A program made the position numbers and the translations under genes. This document shows, one piece after another, positions 53,763 through 63,665 of a stretch of DNA of 64,000 nt. The first letter of the stretch is position 1. Every line of letters begins with the position of its first letter. Where the stretch lies: assembly GCF_013414195.1 (NCBI RefSeq), contig NZ_JAATTV010000015.1, forward strand, positions 1-64,000. Direction: 5' to 3'. This DNA is from Psychrobacter sp. BI730. GTDB taxonomy: Bacteria; Pseudomonadota; Gammaproteobacteria; Pseudomonadales; Moraxellaceae. The notes under the pieces were generated by a model that was given only the letters and a program-made list of their open reading frames with translations, was not told the origin of the DNA and ran no database searches.

Positions 53763-55106
53763 ATGGCTACAGATTTACAAGTCACAACCAATAAGCTATC
53801 TAATAAAGAAACCCAGCTAACGGTTAAAGTGCCCGTTGAAAAAATTCAAAACAAAGTTGAAGGCCGTATTCGCCAAGTTGCGAAAACTGCCAAGATTGAC
53901 GGTTTCCGTAAAGGTAACGTCCCTATGTCACACATCCGCTCTCAGTACGGTGCTGGCATTCAACAAGAAGTTATCAACGATGTCATCCGTGATACTGTAT
54001 TTGAAGCGATCAAATCTGAAGACATCCGCGCTGTTGGCATGCCTAACATCGACGACGTAAAACTTGAAGACGATTTCTTGGTATATCAAGCCACTGTTGA
54101 AATCTTCCCAGAAGTTGACGTACAAGGTATCGATGAGATCGAAGTTGAGCGTCACACTGCACAAGTGAGTGAAGAAGACGTTGATACTATGATCGAAAAC
54201 CTACAAAAGCAACGTGAAGAATTCGTTGAGAAAAAGGGCATGGCTGCGAAAGACAACCAAGTGACTTTTGACTTTGAAGGCTCTATCGACGGCGAAAAAT
54301 TCGAAGGCGGCTCTGCTGAAGACTTCAAACTAGTTATCGGTAGCAACCAAATGATTCCAGGTTTTGAAGCTGGTATCAAAGGCATGAAAGCTGGCGAAGA
54401 AAAAACTATCGACGTAACTTTCCCAGAAGATTACCAAGCTGAGAACCTAGCTGGTAAAGAAGCTCAGTTCAAAATCAACGTAAAATTGGTTGAAAAATCT
54501 AAGCTACCTGAAATCAACGAAGAGTTCCTTGAGCTATTCGGCGTAAAAGAAGGCGGCGTTGAGAAGTTGAAAGAAGACGTACGCAAAAACATGGAACGCG
54601 AAATCAAAAACGCTGCGCGTAGCCAAGTTAAGCAAGCGACTTTTGACGCATTATTAGAAAAGAACGAGTTTGATGTACCAAACGCTATGCTAGAGCAAGA
54701 AATCGAGCGTCAACGCAACATGATGATGCAACGTTTTTCTCAGCAGTTCGGCGCAAATGCTGATAGCTTCGATAAAGACATGCTGCCAAATGAGCTATTT
54801 GAAGAGCAAGCGCTACGTGCTGCCCGTCTTGGCATCATCGTTGCCCGTGTTATCGATACTAAAGGCCTAGAAGTAGATCAAGAGCGTGTAGAAACCTTCA
54901 TCAAAGAAGCCGCTGAAAACTACGAAGATCCAAGCGAGGTCATCGAGTACTACACCAATGACAAGCAGCAGCGCGCTAACATTGAGTCTGTCGTACTAGA
55001 AGACCAAGTAGTAGATTATTTGATCGCTCAAGGTAAAGTAACTGACAAAGAAGTTAGCTACCAAGACTTGCTAGCTGCTCAGCAACAACAGCAGCAAGCA
55101 ATGTAG
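53763..55106 (+). CDS. tig: Trigger factor
   Basis: A ribosome-bound chaperone and peptidyl-prolyl isomerase of 447 residues. The N-terminal ribosome-binding domain has the signature region [20 protein letters not shown] (family GFRxGKVP). The FKBP-like domain (about 150-245) shows [17 protein letters not shown] and [18 protein letters not shown]. The helical C-terminal arms end in a Gln-rich stretch. AAGGTG precedes the ATG. In many relatives clpP follows directly; here the urease cluster lies between. Confidence 0.97.
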
Positions 55107-55274: not shown

Positions 55275-56027
55275 TTATACTAAAACGGGTGCGAATACGG
55301 CGCTCAATCCTAGCAGCACTAGCCCGCGCTGTAACCATAAGCTATCACTAAAGCGTTGCTGCAACTGTTGACTAATCAGCGTACCAACTGCATATAGCGC
55401 TAGCATCGTGACCATCATCCCTGCATAAAAACCCAGCTGTCCGCTCATACCTACATTCGCTGGTACTTCCATCGCATGTGCCATGCCATGAAACACCGCC
55501 AAACCACCAAAACCAAACAATGACAGCTGCTGAATGCTTGGCGTGCGTGCTGTATGAGTCTGCGCAGAGAATGCCTCTTGTCTACTTTTTTGGCTCATTA
55601 AGACCATAGCCAATACGACTACCGACAGTGATATCGCCACTTCAATCAACCCAGATGATGCAGCAAACGCGATACCGCCAATCAGTACGCCAGCCGTGCC
55701 CAATATCGCGCCTAATGACAACCCTGCGGTCAATGACATCATGCCTAAGCGCTGCTTTTGTAGCCCATAAAACAACATGCCCATACCTACGGCCAAAAAC
55801 AGATGATCAAGGCCAGTCACTGGATGCATCAGTCCTGCTTGTAACGTACCTAAAGACGATGACGCTTGCGCGGTAGTCGAATGAATATGCCCTGAATGCG
55901 CCTGCGCCAATGACGGTAGCATTAGTGATGCCATCATCACAGCCGAACCAGAAACGATGTGACGAGCTGAGAGCACTTGTGAAAAACGAGATTTTTCGAT
56001 GTGAAGACCTTTTGTATACTGTGTCAT
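55275..56027 (-). CDS. ureJ: HupE/UreJ family nickel permease-like protein
   Basis: A 250-residue membrane protein with a signal-like N-terminus ending SLMLPSLAQAHSGHIHS, which leaves a His-rich end on the mature protein. GLMHPVTGLDHLFLAVGMG is the metal-binding signature of HupE/UreJ in the first membrane helix; about six hydrophobic segments follow. Its role is probably nickel uptake for urease. It is the last gene of the ureDABCEFG-J cluster, after ureG. Confidence 0.9.
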   Translation of the reverse strand: MTQYTKGLHIEKSRFSQVLSARHIVSGSAVMMASLMLPSLAQAHSGHIHSTTAQASSSLGTLQAGLMHPVTGLDHLFLAVGMGMLFYGLQKQRLGMMSLTAGLSLGAILGTAGVLIGGIAFAASSGLIEVAISLSVVVLAMVLMSQKSRQEAFSAQTHTARTPSIQQLSLFGFGGLAVFHGMAHAMEVPANVGMSGQLGFYAGMMVTMLALYAVGTLISQQLQQRFSDSLWLQRGLVLLGLSAVFAPVLV

Positions 56028-56077: not shown

Positions 56078-56767
56078 TTAGGCAAGCATGCCATGTTCTT
56101 TAATAAAGGCGATAATCTCATTTAGCCCATCACCCGTTTTCATATTGCTAAAAACAAAAGGTTTGTCGCCACGCATTTTTTTGGCATCGCGTTCCATCAC
56201 TTCAAGCGACGCACCAACCATTGGTGCAAGGTCAGTCTTATTAATAATCAACAAATCAGACTTGGTAATGCCAGGTCCACCCTTACGAGGTATCTTATCG
56301 CCTGCAGAGACATCAATGACGTACAAGGTCAAATCAGACAACTCTGGGCTAAATGTTGCGGCTAGATTGTCGCCACCTGACTCAATAATAATCAACTCTA
56401 AACCTTCAAAAGTCGCTTGTAGCTCAGCAATCGCAGTCAGATTAATAGAAGCATCTTCGCGAATAGCTGTATGCGGACAGCCGCCCGTCTCTACACCGCG
56501 GATACGCTCAGCAGGCATGGCATCTTTACGGGTCAGAAACTCTGAATCTTCTTTGGTATAGATGTCATTGGTCACGACTGCCATATTGACCGTATCACGC
56601 AGGTTTTGGCATAGTCTTAATGTCAAAGCAGTCTTACCACTACCAACTGGCCCGCCAATACCAAGGCGTAAGCACGATAAGGCAGAAGATGGTTTCTGGC
56701 TATCACTATCAGTTTGTACATCTGATGCAACATTAGAGTTTTTTGGTTTGAGCGGAGTTAGAGACAT
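56078..56767 (-). CDS. ureG: Urease accessory GTPase UreG
   Basis: UreG is the GTPase that delivers nickel during urease maturation. The P-loop is [15 protein letters not shown] near residues 37-51. [15 protein letters not shown], the CPH metal motif in [26 protein letters not shown] and the NKTDLAP guanine motif follow. The 229 residues include about 30 extra at the N-terminus. It sits between ureF and ureJ. Confidence 0.97.
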
Positions 56768-56824: not shown

Positions 56825-57619
56825 TTATGAGCGGAACAACCGACTGTATTGCTCCTCATGCATGCTTGAGAGAATAGCCAAATTGGGCAAGTTATTAGAG
56901 ATATTAAGCGATTCATAGAGGTCTTGGCATAGCTGCTGACAGTCTGGTTCTTCACTTGTATCTAAGGTATCCATAGTATTTATCGATGTGATTAAAGCAT
57001 CGAAAGCCTGTTGCACATTAGCGCTTAGAGCATCAACCTGAGCACCCAGATCGCTTTGCAATTGCCACAGGATACGCTGACCTGCCATTTGTCCTAGCGG
57101 CACTGTCTTCACAGCAGCGAGTACCATATTCTCTAATTGTGCAAATCCATAAGTAGTCATTGACTGCGCTAGTGGCAGCTGCCAATGCTGAGCAATATGA
57201 GCAAATAGCGGCAAAAATCCATCTTCAGGTATTTCGGCCGGTATGCCAAGATTCAATACTTCGTTTAGCCAAGACACCATCGCTTGTGCCAACTGCTGCG
57301 ACTCCAGTACAAACTCTTTACTCTCGAGACCAGCGTGATAATCATGTGCTAGATTTGTCGCTAGCGCTTCATGACCTTGGCTGAGCGCGCACATTATTAG
57401 CCCTAATACGGGCAACTCGTAGCCAATCACTGCAAGCGCTAGATAGTCCTGCATAAATGTAAGCGTACTGGCTTCATCAGAGACAACCCCTGACTCAATC
57501 GCTGACTCCACACCTTGCGAATAGGTATAACTACCAATCGGCAAATTGCTCGATGCCAGCATCAGTAGCTGTCCAAGTTGGGTAGACTGAGTAGGCTGAG
57601 CACTGGTATTAACCATCAT
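56825..57619 (-). CDS. ureF: Urease accessory protein UreF
   Basis: UreF is an all-helical partner of UreD and UreG in activating apo-urease. Family blocks are LLMLASSNLPIGSYTYSQGVESAIE at the N-terminus (typical PxGxFxxSxGLE form) and VPLGQMAGQRILWQL. The 264 residues include a less conserved acidic C-terminal stretch. Its start overlaps the end of ureE by 11 bases, indicating translational coupling. Confidence 0.94.
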   Translation of the reverse strand: MMVNTSAQPTQSTQLGQLLMLASSNLPIGSYTYSQGVESAIESGVVSDEASTLTFMQDYLALAVIGYELPVLGLIMCALSQGHEALATNLAHDYHAGLESKEFVLESQQLAQAMVSWLNEVLNLGIPAEIPEDGFLPLFAHIAQHWQLPLAQSMTTYGFAQLENMVLAAVKTVPLGQMAGQRILWQLQSDLGAQVDALSANVQQAFDALITSINTMDTLDTSEEPDCQQLCQDLYESLNISNNLPNLAILSSMHEEQYSRLFRS

Positions 57620-58253
57620 TTGAACGACCTACAGGCGCATCATGATGACTATGGCTATGGCTATGGTGATGTCCGTGGCTGTGGCTTTCGTCATGGCTAT
57701 GACTTTTCTTATGACTATGAGAGTCACTATGCGAATGTGCATGGGAGTGAGCATGACCATGCGAATGCCCTTGTCCCGTTTGATAAGCGCCCGTTTCAGG
57801 CTCAAATGGCACTGAGGTAGACTCGATATGTAGACCAAGATTTTCTAACATTTGTGCAAGTACATGATCGTTTTCAAAATATAACGCATAGCCTGCATTA
57901 CCCTGATCAAAACTGTGGTCAAACATCAATGGCACATGACGGTTGCCCAAGTGATAAGCGCCTTTCATTAGTAGAAAGTCATCGTCAGCCGTCACTTTGG
58001 TCACCGCTTGCGGCTTGGCGATGACTTGCATCAACTCCCCTGCTGCATTGATAAGGACATCATTTCCTTTTAGTACACCTGTACGAGGCAAGTCAACACC
58101 AACTGCCTCACCTGAAACAGTAATGGCTCTAAAGCGGGAATGCTGACGAGTATCAAAATCCAATAGCAGGTAATCATCGGCTTGATACTGTTCTACCAAT
58201 TGTGCTTTTTGGGTATCGCTAAGCGTACTTAAACGGGTATTAAATATTTTCAT
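57609..58253 (-). CDS. ureE: Urease accessory nickel metallochaperone UreE
   Basis: UreE collects nickel for UreG/urease. The start chosen is ATG 58253 (MKIFNTRLSTLSD); the longer frame to 58340 adds 29 residues not seen in the family. Core motifs are FDTRQHSRFRAITVSGEAVGVDLPRTG, AYHLGNRHVPLMFD (metal-binding His) and VLAQMLENLG. The C-terminal 50 residues are a His-Ser tail with about 20 histidines, a nickel-binding tail as in Klebsiella UreE but longer. Confidence 0.93.
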   Translation of the reverse strand: MKIFNTRLSTLSDTQKAQLVEQYQADDYLLLDFDTRQHSRFRAITVSGEAVGVDLPRTGVLKGNDVLINAAGELMQVIAKPQAVTKVTADDDFLLMKGAYHLGNRHVPLMFDHSFDQGNAGYALYFENDHVLAQMLENLGLHIESTSVPFEPETGAYQTGQGHSHGHAHSHAHSHSDSHSHKKSHSHDESHSHGHHHSHSHSHHDAPVGRSNDG

Positions 58254-58417
58254 TATTCTTCTCTGGCTGTTGTTGCTCAAACTATTGGTCAATAGTATTG
58301 ATGGTAAAAGTATTGGGAATAAAGATACGATCTCATTCAAGAAACCAACTGACCATTGGCATACATGGTTTATGGCTCACTGTCTTAGAGAGCTCCTATA
58401 AACGTGCATCATAAGCT

Positions 58418-60607
58418 CTAAAATAAAAAATAACGCTGTGCCATGGGTAATACATCGGCTGGCTCACAGGTGAGTGTCTTACCATCAGCGCGTACTTCAT
58501 AGGTCTCAGGATTGATATCCATATCTGGGCAGTAGCTGTTAAAGCGCATATCGCTTTTACGAATTTTACGGATACCGTGTACTGGCTGAATGACTTTGGT
58601 CAATCCAAGCTGCTTATCCACTTGTTTGTCGATCGCCGCTTGCGACATAAAAGTAATGCTGGTTTGGGCAACCGATTTTGGATATGTCGCAAACATAGGA
58701 CGATAATGTACAGGCTGGGGTGTGGGAATAGAGGCATTGATATCACCCATCGGTACTGCAGCAATGAGCCCACCTTTTATAATGCATTCAGGCTTTACCC
58801 CAAAAAACTTGGGCGACCAGAGCACCATATCTGCCCATTTACCTACTTCGATTGAGCCGACCATATCGCTGATACCGTGAGTAATCGCAGGGTTTATTGT
58901 ATATTTTGCGATATAGCGTTTGATACGGAAGTTATCGTTGTCCGTGCTTTGATCATAGTCTGTCAAAGTGATGTACTGTTGCTCATCCTCAATGGTCGCT
59001 GTTGCATCTGGTGCTAGATGACCACGTTGAACTTTCATTTTGTGCGCGGTCTGCCACGTGCGAATGACTACTTCACCTACTCGACCCATGGCTTGTGAAT
59101 CGCTACTCATCATCGAGATGGCACCCAAATCATGCAAGATATCTTCTGCGGCAATGGTTTCTTGACGAATACGGCTTTCAGCAAAGGCCACATCTTCAGC
59201 AATAGCAGGACTTAGGTGATGACAAACCATCAGCATATCGAGATGCTCATCAATAGTATTGACGGTGTATGGGCGCGTTGGGTTGGTTGAAGATGGCAGC
59301 ACATGCGACTCGCCAATAGCCTTTAGAATATCGGGCGCATGGCCACCACCTGCCCCTTCAGTATGAAAAGTATGGATACAGCGGTTTTTAAAAGCAGCGA
59401 GCGTACTTTCGAGATAGCCACTTTCATTTAAAGTATCGGTATGAATAGCCACTTGCACATCATAGTCGTCAGCGACACTCAAGCAGTTATCGATGGCTTG
59501 CGGGGTTGTACCCCAATCTTCATGTAGCTTTAGCCCTACGGCACCTGCTTCGATTTGTTCAGCAATGGGTTCTGGTACACTCACATTTCCTTTGCCCAGT
59601 AATCCGATATTCATGGGAATACTGTCCGTAGACTTTAGCATTGAGGCAATATGATAAGCCCCTGGCGTACAAGTAGTCGCGAGAGTTCCTTGAGCTGGCC
59701 CTGTGCCGCCGCCCAGCATCGTCGTAACTCCTGACATAAGCGCTGTCTCGCATTGCTGAGGTGCGATAAAGTGGATATGACTATCGACGCCACCTGCTGT
59801 CAGAATTTTACCTTCACCAGCTATAATCTCAGTAGCACCGCCAATCGCAATATCGATGGCAGGCTGGATATCAGGATTGCCCGCTTTGCCAATGGCACTG
59901 ATACGACCATCTTTGATACCAATATCCGCTTTATAGATGCCTGTATAGTCAACGACTAATGCATTAGTAATAACCGTATCGGCAACTTCCGCGCCTAGTA
60001 ATTGTCCTTGCCCCATACCATCACGGATGACTTTACCACCGCCAAATTTGACTTCTTCACCTTTGATTTCAATAGGCCTGCTGCTACTTTCACCACTTTG
60101 CGACGTATCTGCTTGGTCAACAGTAGTATCCTTATGACTGGTTAAATCTGCTTCAACCTGTAGCCACAGCTCGGTATCGGCAAGACGGACTTTATCACCT
60201 GTGGTGGGACCAAAATGCTCAGCATAAATACGACGACTGACTCGCTTCTGCGAAGTAGCAGTTGCCTTTTTATCAGTAACACTCTCTGATGCTTCGTCTG
60301 GATGAGCGGCGCCCATGACGCGCCCAGCAAAACCATATACATCTTGCTTGCCAGCGTATGCTACCAATTCTACTTCCCGCGATTGACCAGGCTCAAAACG
60401 TACGGCGGTTCCAGAGATAATATTTAGGCGAAAACCTCGAGTCTGCTCTCTCTCAAAACTCAAGGCATCATTGACTTCATAAAAGTGATAATGCGAGCCG
60501 ATTTGGATAGGTCTATCACCAGTATTGCTGACACTGATGGTCTGCACCTGTCGACCTTGGTTTAAGATAATATCGCCATCTTGGATATGGTATTCGCCTG
60601 CTTGCAT
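58418..60607 (-). CDS. ureC: Urease beta-alpha fusion (UreB-UreC), single ORF
   Basis: One 729-residue frame joins two urease subunits. Residues 1-98 are UreB ([19 protein letters not shown] to GFAGRV), 99-122 a linker, and 123-729 UreC ([19 protein letters not shown]). All active-site residues are present at a constant offset of 143 from K. aerogenes UreC: nickel ligands His277, His279, Lys360 (carbamylated), His389, His415 and Asp503; catalytic His463 and Cys462. There is no stop or internal Met in the linker. Insertions occur at about 156-177 and 532-555. It hydrolyses urea with UreA. Confidence 0.93.
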
Positions 60608-60663: not shown

Positions 60664-60966
60664 TTACACGATGGGATTATGTACCGTGACCAGTTTGGTG
60701 CCATCAGGAAAGGTTGCCTCGATTTGCACTTCATCTACCATCTCTGCGACACCTTCCATGACATCGTCAGCCGACAGATAAGTGGCGCCCTCACTCATTA
60801 ATTCGGCAACTCTTTTGCCATCTCTAGCCCCTTCCATCAGCAGCATACTGATATAAGCGATCGCTTCGGGATAGTTAAGCTTAACACCGCGATTTTTGCG
60901 ACGCTCAGCCACCATACCAGCCGTAAATAGCATGAGTTTATCTTTTTCTGTTGGGGTCAGGTGCAT
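60664..60966 (-). CDS. ureA: Urease gamma subunit
   Basis: The 100-residue small subunit UreA begins [23 protein letters not shown] and contains [22 protein letters not shown] and the C-terminal [14 protein letters not shown], all standard. It pairs with the fused UreBC product to form the urease unit. It lies 56 bases upstream of the fusion gene and 118 bases after ureD. Confidence 0.97.
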
Positions 60967-61084: not shown

Positions 61085-62113
61085 TTAAGTATCCCAAATA
61101 CGCGGACGACAAGGCTCAAGTTGCCACCAATGATCTCGTAAGACTTCTCTCAGCTGATAAAACGCTTCAAAACAACCGCGTACATCTGAGCCAATATAGC
61201 GGATATTGATCGCTTGGCAATTATGAGTGCAGTAGACAGGCAGTTGTGCTTGAGCAATAACTTGTCGCAATGCTGCTACAGTATTGTCTAGATAGCGGGT
61301 TAATGCCTGTTTGGTCGTGGCTAATGCCGTCTCCGTTGATTGCGTGGTTTGGGAGGCAGATAATGCACGGTTGTCATGTACATCGCTCAAACTCGGTACG
61401 GCCCAAAACGATCCATAAATATGCTGACCTGCCAGCCCCAAATTTGAGGAGAACCAGCGACTGCCAGCAGACTGATCTACACGTTCAGCAACGATAACCT
61501 TACCTTCTCGGTAGATATTTAATCCAGTATGGTAATGCCCTTGTAAGAACTGCTCGTCGTAAGCTTGCCGCCCAAATACGCTAATCTCCCATGTCAGCAA
61601 GCTAGAGGAATCAGCTAAATCAAAGCGACTCACTGCATGCATATTGGCTTCGTTATAAATGATACTCTCTTGGGGCAGCCATTCTAAACGGGTATCTGCT
61701 GCGAGGTTGGCTTGTACGTGTTGGCTCGCATAGGCAGCTATCTCGTCTTGGCTCATACTTCGGTGAGTAACGTCGTCGCCCAACGGAGCTTTATGTTTTT
61801 GACTGACGCTGTCTTTGCCATACCATTTACCTGCACCTGGTGTGGTGATAACAGCGTGGCTGCCACTATCTAAGTTTAGGTCTATGGACAGCGTATCGCC
61901 ACCTGCGATACCGGCTGGCGGGTACAACATCAGTATGTGACAAATACCCTGCTGTACGCTTGGCTCAGGATACAGAGCACGCTGTACCATCAAGGCACCC
62001 GTATGCTTACGATGATAAAGCCGCGTTTTTGAGTTATCAGCCGTACCCTCTTTGGCCGTACTTGTCCTGCTAACAGTGTCAAAGCTTAATGCTAAAGAAG
62101 AGGCCCAACTCAT
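61085..62113 (-). CDS. ureD: Urease accessory protein UreD
   Basis: UreD (UreH) is the scaffold that binds apo-urease for nickel insertion with UreF and UreG. Family patterns are LYPEPSVQQGICHILMLYPPAGIAGGD, ITTPGAGKWY and the LEWLPQESIIYNEA stretch, followed by a long C-terminal part. 342 residues. It is the first gene of the minus-strand urease cluster; a sigma54-type promoter and NtrC-like site lie upstream. Confidence 0.93.
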   Translation of the reverse strand: MSWASSLALSFDTVSRTSTAKEGTADNSKTRLYHRKHTGALMVQRALYPEPSVQQGICHILMLYPPAGIAGGDTLSIDLNLDSGSHAVITTPGAGKWYGKDSVSQKHKAPLGDDVTHRSMSQDEIAAYASQHVQANLAADTRLEWLPQESIIYNEANMHAVSRFDLADSSSLLTWEISVFGRQAYDEQFLQGHYHTGLNIYREGKVIVAERVDQSAGSRWFSSNLGLAGQHIYGSFWAVPSLSDVHDNRALSASQTTQSTETALATTKQALTRYLDNTVAALRQVIAQAQLPVYCTHNCQAINIRYIGSDVRGCFEAFYQLREVLRDHWWQLEPCRPRIWDT

Positions 62114-62990: not shown

Positions 62991-63665
62991 ATGACAGATT
63001 ATGATCGCATCACTGCCAACCCGCATTTTGATATGCTGATGAGTGCGCACAAAGAAGTACAGACCACACAAGCGGCTTTAGTACCTATGGTGGTTGAACA
63101 GTCCTCACGCGGTGAACGCTCGTTTGATATTTTTTCACGTCTATTACGTGAGCGTGTTATCTTCTTGACCGGTCAGGTCGAAGACAACATGGCCAACCTT
63201 ATCGTCGCCCAGTTGCTATTCTTAGAAGCTGAAAATCCTGATAAAGATATCCATTTGTATATCAACTCACCAGGTGGTTCAGTAAGCGCTGGATTGGCTA
63301 TTTTTGATACCATGAACTTCATCAAACCTGAAGTATCCACTATCTGTATGGGCGGTGCTTATAGCATGGGTTCATTCCTATTGGCTGCTGGTCAAAAAGG
63401 CAAGCGCTACTCACTGGCTAATGCTCGCGTTATGATTCACCAGCCTTCAGGCGGCGCGCAGGGTCAAGCAACTGATATCGAAATTAACGCTCGTGAAATT
63501 CTTAAAACTCGTGCACGTCTAAATAGTATCTTAGCTGAGCGCACTGGTCAGCCAGTAGAGAAAATCGAAAAAGACGTTGAGCGTGATTATTGGTTAGATG
63601 CACAAGAAGCCAAAGAGTATGGTTTGGTTGACGAAGTATTAGAGCGTCGTCCTGAATCTTTGTAA
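62991..63665 (+). CDS. clpP: ATP-dependent Clp protease proteolytic subunit
   Basis: The 224-residue serine peptidase forms the ClpP barrel. The catalytic triad is Ser125 ([10 protein letters not shown]), His150 ([10 protein letters not shown]) and Asp199 (VERDYWLD). [19 protein letters not shown] forms the substrate channel region. The sequence between residues 1 and 25 would be removed as a propeptide. AGGAC precedes the ATG. clpX follows by 186 bases on the same strand. Confidence 0.97.

Follow-up and report, generated by a model that had tools for sequence, protein, structure and literature searches.

The locus described here raises the question whether UreB and UreC of a urease can be made as one polypeptide while UreA remains a chain of its own. 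The window, a stretch of 64,000 nucleotides from Psychrobacter sp. BI730 that was analysed as a whole, contains an open reading frame that joins the two subunits. To our knowledge, the described urease layouts comprise three separate chains, a fused UreA-UreB chain with a free UreC, and a single chain with all three parts. A natural UreB-UreC fusion was not found described in the titles and abstract openings of the open-licence literature searched, in which most subscription journals are missing, and entries of this kind may already exist in protein databases as plain 'urease subunit alpha'. Judged from sequence, the window very probably encodes a functional urease of the layout UreA + UreBC, with the fused gene made as one chain.

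The fusion proposed by a sequence-only reading of this DNA was borne out. In Pfam searches, Urease_beta (residues 4-99) precedes Urease_alpha and Amidohydro_1. The fused protein scored 140 bits with PF00699 (cut-off 25), 922 with TIGR01792 (680) and 141.5 with TIGR00192 (90.3); its UreB and UreC profile matches exceed the curated cut-offs, as in nickel ureases of the UreABC family. The UreC part is complete, with residue 122 to the last residue aligning to K. aerogenes UreC 3-567. The computed mass of 78,856 Da for 729 residues agrees with the subunit of about 79 kDa that had been predicted. The polar linker was found close to its proposed position (24 residues at about 60242-60313), its length being refined to 22 residues (Table 1). 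UreA is indeed a separate gene, so the Helicobacter-type arrangement of UreA joined to UreB beside a free UreC does not apply. Nor are there separate ureB and ureC genes as in three-chain ureases: a whole-genome search with the fused protein gave this single match and no second UreB or UreC elsewhere in the genome. Profile searches found no gamma part in the 729-residue chain, which sets it apart from the single-chain ureases of plants and fungi.

Table 1 Features of the urease locus, with positions in the window
Feature	Position	Strand	Basis or remark
HupE/UreJ-type membrane protein	55275..56027	(-)	Pfam
UreG accessory gene	56078..56767	(-)	profile matches
UreF accessory gene	56825..57619	(-)	Pfam
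UreE frame, histidine-rich tail	57609..58340	(-)	profile matches; listed start TTG
Fused UreB-UreC gene	58418..60607	(-)	ATG start, 729 codons, 78.9 kDa
UreC part, residues 122-729	58421..60244	(-)	alignment to K. aerogenes UreC 3-567; NF009686 residues 121-729
Insertion 2 in UreC, residues 534-552, 19 aa	58952..59008	(-)	alignment with K. aerogenes UreC
Insertion 1 in UreC, residues 159-182, 24 aa	60062..60133	(-)	alignment with K. aerogenes UreC
Linker, residues 100-121 (22 aa), polar	60245..60310	(-)	without in-frame ATG, GTG or TTG
UreB part, residues 1-99	60311..60607	(-)	Pfam PF00699 residues 4-99; TIGR00192 residues 1-99
UreA, separate gene, 100 aa, just upstream of the fused gene	60664..60966	(-)	profile matches
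UreD accessory gene	61085..62113	(-)	Pfam

The nearest solved UreC structures were 8hcn_C and 1ejw_C. Residues 96-163 (60119-60322) matched a solved 99-residue urease fragment, 2mm8_A (E 8.2e-8), and in a search with residues 100-157 the stretch 103-155 aligned to the same fragment; this likeness seems to come mainly from the conserved UreC start and not from the linker. AlphaFold2 run on the window protein alone gave a mean pLDDT of 32.8, and the model was not used.

The accessory genes UreD, UreE, UreF and UreG all adjoin the structural genes, as expected of a nickel urease. The tail of UreE is long and rich in His and Ser, and the listed TTG start of this frame is probably too early, the true start being an internal ATG. 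UreG carries about 30 additional polar residues ahead of its family match.

HIH and six further active-site motifs (GLKxHEDWG, VAxHxDTLNE, [27 protein letters not shown]), which we take to be the nickel-site and catalytic motifs of UreC, occur in every one of the 61 fused family loci, that of the window included. The active-site motifs are kept, in agreement with the sequence-only reading. Stricter patterns around HIH were matched in 59 and 60 of the 61 loci.

These loci came from the survey across Psychrobacter and other Moraxellaceae that the sequence-only reading had proposed. UreB was matched in 147 genomes of a family sample of 299, namely in 79 of the 105 genomes of the genus and in 68 others. 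The fused gene is present in 58 of the 79 urease-positive genus genomes (L001-L030, L041-L068); 22 genomes of the genus carry an unfused urease, and G013 alone carries both. Beyond the genus, the fusion was found in three of the 68 urease-positive genomes (G110, G135, G186), belonging to two other genera, and in the remaining 65 UreB does not lie in a frame of fused length. The fusion thus marks a clade that extends over three or more genera of the family; it is not peculiar to the window organism.

The fused frame could have arisen through an assembly error that hides a stop between ureB and ureC, or it could be a decaying pseudogene, and two of the 61 fused genes are in fact broken: L054 has a stop inside UreB and L062 ends prematurely. 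However, 60 further family loci share the open junction of the window, each of the 61 in a genome of its own, and the 59 linkers that were measured are all in frame with 13-48 residues. With dN/dS below 1 and the active-site motifs kept as well, this reading is refuted for the fused clade and can be given next to no probability. In G013, the fused gene with the internal stop (L054) is accompanied by the unfused urease L081, which looks like a urease replacement in progress.

Leaving out L054 and L062, linker length and dN/dS were assessed on 59 of the 61 genes. The linker was most often 22 or 13 residues long. Its dN/dS was 0.47 among 27 close genes and 0.29 in a second group of 20 genes, compared with 0.012-0.093 for the UreB and UreC domains, insertions excluded; these values cover 27 + 20 of the 59 genes and derive from a simple counting method, with the linker alignment being uncertain. 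By these ratios, the linker is shown to be under weak constraint, fast-changing yet evolving as protein. In each of the nine family junctions that were examined, stops interrupt one or both of the other two frames, and in seven of the nine they interrupt both. That all 61 family loci keep the junction open, although other frames hold stops, goes beyond chance. Stops in at least one other frame were found in ten of eleven junctions when the distant family f271 (see below) was included; the exception, L132 of that family, has no stops in any frame, so that an open junction by itself means little in that case.

A fused frame might still give two subunits, through internal initiation, for example at Met98 or a linker GTG, or through proteolysis of the linker. 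A polar, weakly constrained linker is what an exposed, cleavable stretch would be. The window linker itself has no Met for a separate UreC start, as had been noted, the only in-frame ATG nearby being Met98 within the VMG motif of UreB. This Met is present in 60 of the 61 fused family loci, in some of them with AGG or AGGG 7-10 bases before it, and 16 of the 61 linkers hold at least one in-frame ATG, GTG or TTG, eight of these sharing a GTG at the same valine (KRV/KKV/KQV motif) near the UreC start. Met98, however, is part of a UreB motif that is mostly common to unfused UreB proteins, and an AGGAGG-like site before it, as judged by eye, is not kept. The other start codons are not kept through the clade either: in 45 of the 61 loci, the window among them, no in-frame ATG, GTG or TTG lies between the VMG motif and the UreC core, and no start codon recurs in all of the linkers of the 61 family loci. 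A conserved internal UreC start is thus not supported across these loci, and we regard separate initiation of UreC or cleavage of the linker as unlikely. The preferred reading is that one chain would be made and would be active.

Both insertions that had been proposed in UreC (about 156-177 and 532-555) are present; their limits were refined (Table 1), and they proved unlike in kind. Insertion 1 is lineage-variable. Its region comprises a single residue in 7 of 59 fused genes, 25 residues in 22 of 59 and 57 at most; L061, L065-L068, L091 and L092 are without the insertion, and L093 has a short one. The loop that holds insertion 2 (residues 532-555) has 24 residues in 57 of the 59 fused genes and 31 in the other two. 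Nine unfused relatives and six distant fused genes were compared, and in these the loop is short, with a few more residues in L098. As the loop is long in all 59 fused genes and short in the relatives compared, insertion 2 seems to be characteristic of the fused clade. A guess would be that it packs beside UreB.

The origin of the fusion within the family was traced in UreC trees. A careful tree of 48 rows, calculated under one model, included 12 of the 61 fused family loci, 6 of the 21 fused loci of f271 and 30 of 57 unfused loci, and a larger quick tree of 92 rows included 29, 8 and 55 of these, respectively. L040, from the same genome as L078, is in neither tree and L034 was dropped for its short UreC; the 48-row tree also omits the long-branched L094, L136, L139 and L144, and L100, without a UreC match, is outside all counts of unfused loci. 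In the 48-row tree, the fused genes of the family group together as a single clade (support 100/100), whose sister is formed by unfused ureases of the family genera g9, g11 and g15 (100/99 for the pair). The quick tree agrees. Other unfused family copies (L094, L099, L139) were placed elsewhere in the trees. The unfused ureases of the genus form two groups, both placed with ureases of other families, and for this reason we read them as acquired and not as reversions.

Across the unfused loci, ureB and ureC lie in the same frame in 8 of 57. In g15 (L031-L039) this is the case for four of nine loci, three of which have ureB and ureC separated by a single stop; in the unfused copies of the genus (L069-L090), the two genes overlap in another frame in 21 of 22. 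The same-frame, single-stop arrangement in these living relatives suggests that the loss of one stop would be an easy route to the fusion. The stop between adjacent ureB and ureC would have been lost in the ancestor of part of the family, after which ureB would have been read on into ureC through the former spacer, with the old ureC start no longer needed. Since then the linker has drifted in length under weak constraint. In some unfused relatives, additional DNA separates the two genes: 448 bases lie between ureB and ureC in the unfused locus L034, and in plasmid records such as NZ_CP026416.1 a GNAT acetyltransferase is annotated under the match. The plasmid search returned 165 matching records, the best 15 of which were all from Acinetobacter, 12 with a separate ureC and urease subunit beta and three without annotation; on this ground, g15 may be Acinetobacter.

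Outside the family of the window, no real fusion was found in the order sample (UreB in 147 of 293 genomes, seven of these from the genus of the window), in the class sample (88 of 369) or in the phylum samples around L101 (32 of 149) and L125 (6 of 149). The few frames of more than 570 residues outside the genus in the order and class samples were matches below the cut-off, and long UreB frames in G1080, G1166, G1014, G1066, G1059, G1115 and G1227 were rejected as fusions, with UreC lying in another frame. A degenerate pattern of the UreC N-terminus of the clade, searched in genome contigs from which close relatives of the window genome may be missing, hit 30 stretches, none of them with a urease by blastp with UreA, UreB and UreC queries. 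Two scans of viral contigs for relatives gave one partial urease (L171) and none, respectively. The wider genome samples overlap and are thin, and more fusions may exist beyond them.

One further real fusion, in G1056, emerged from a phylum search of 398 genomes (UreB in 149 among the matches listed). In its family, f271, UreB was found in 64 of 75 genomes, and 58 of the 67 matches listed lie in frames of at least 684 residues. The 21 loci that were read (L132, L151-L170), from 21 of the 64 genomes, all encode UreB and UreC as a single frame, and three are cut short. The six active-site motifs were found in 17-20 of the 21; the misses concern the truncated L169 and, in the case of ESRIR, L155-L157 as well. 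HIH with its context was found in 19, as L169 ends just before it and the 547-residue frame of L167 is without it. The same domain order and the similarly short linkers, 16-18 residues in f271, would fit one ancient UreBC urease that spread horizontally to both families. In the UreC tree (48 rows, one model), however, the two fused sets are placed away from each other and lie among unfused genes, and forcing them into one clade comes at a cost of 68.9 log units (AU p = 0.00028). Neither insertion is present in the f271 genes that were read. Spread from a single fused ancestor is therefore highly improbable; a single common fused clade is rejected, and by these trees the fusion arose separately in f271.

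Compared with known systems, the locus resembles the K. aerogenes-type UreABC urease in the set of UreA and UreD-G, the active-site motifs, the N-terminal region of UreB and the alignment over full-length UreC. It differs in that UreB and UreC are separate chains there, with neither linker nor insertions 1 and 2. With the Helicobacter-type urease (6qsu, 8hc1) it shares two structural polypeptides instead of three, but the joined pair is UreA-UreB in that enzyme, with UreC free, and UreB-UreC in the window, with UreA free. The gene named ureA in H. pylori is described as combining what are ureA and ureB in other bacteria (PMC6737895), and the operon of Arcobacter butzleri is given as ureD(AB)CEFG (PMC2147049). 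Jack bean urease (3la4, 4g7e) likewise has a beta-like part followed by an alpha-like part in one chain, whereas the stretch equivalent to window residues 93-122 has 49 residues there and 29 in the window; plant ureases are also described as joining a gamma part in front (PMC6737895). A curated fused family, NF009671 (bifunctional urease subunit gamma/beta), matches residues 3-113 with its beta part. It represents an A-B and not a B-C fusion, and the window protein scores 127.9 against its cut-off of 243.

Three UreA and three UreBC chains would form the usual trimer of trimers, (UreA-UreBC)3, in which the linker would span from the C-terminus of UreB to the N-terminus of UreC, as in the single-chain plant enzymes. 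Tied to UreC at its C-terminus, UreB would be made in a 1:1 ratio and would be unable to leave UreC, and any movement of it during nickel loading by UreD, UreF and UreG could extend no further than 13-48 linker residues reach. At the other end, an alignment of four fused proteins shows G4, E5, L15, N16 and R19 of UreB unchanged in every row. For K. aerogenes, residues 1-19 of UreB have been described as a hinge that proper activation requires, and a gating role has been suggested (PMC6332059). With this N-terminal tether region kept and a covalent tie at the C-terminus, UreB would be held at both ends. Normal assembly with a fixed UreB:UreC ratio of 1:1 and limited UreB movement is expected from the sequence features.

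In the terms used here, A+BC completes the set of order-preserving urease fusions and arose at least twice. Whether UreB moves while nickel is inserted, as one model holds, can be tested on such naturally occurring enzymes. Should they activate normally, the travel of the UreB C-terminus would be no longer than the reach of the shortest linkers, for which about 13 residues would give a distance of the order of 45 angstroms when fully stretched. A bolder view, which we consider rather doubtful, is that A+BC is a separate, repeatedly evolved architecture in which the tie and the extra UreC loop found throughout the clade replace nickel loading with a moving UreB by a clamped route; a changed or reduced role of UreD-UreF would then be needed in these ureases.

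The genes tig and clpP usually adjoin each other. In the window, the urease operon sits between two genes, at 53763-55106 and 62991-63665, which we take to be tig (trigger factor) and clpP. Both flank the urease operon in eight of nine close relatives (L172-L180); in the ninth, L178, clpP is present and tig was not within the stretch examined. Seven more distant loci (L181-L187), two of them with unfused ureases, had neither gene within the stretches examined. In the fused locus L066 (G077), ureE, ureF and ureG lie on the strand opposite to ureD-A-BC, an arrangement that differs from the other listed fused loci of the family.
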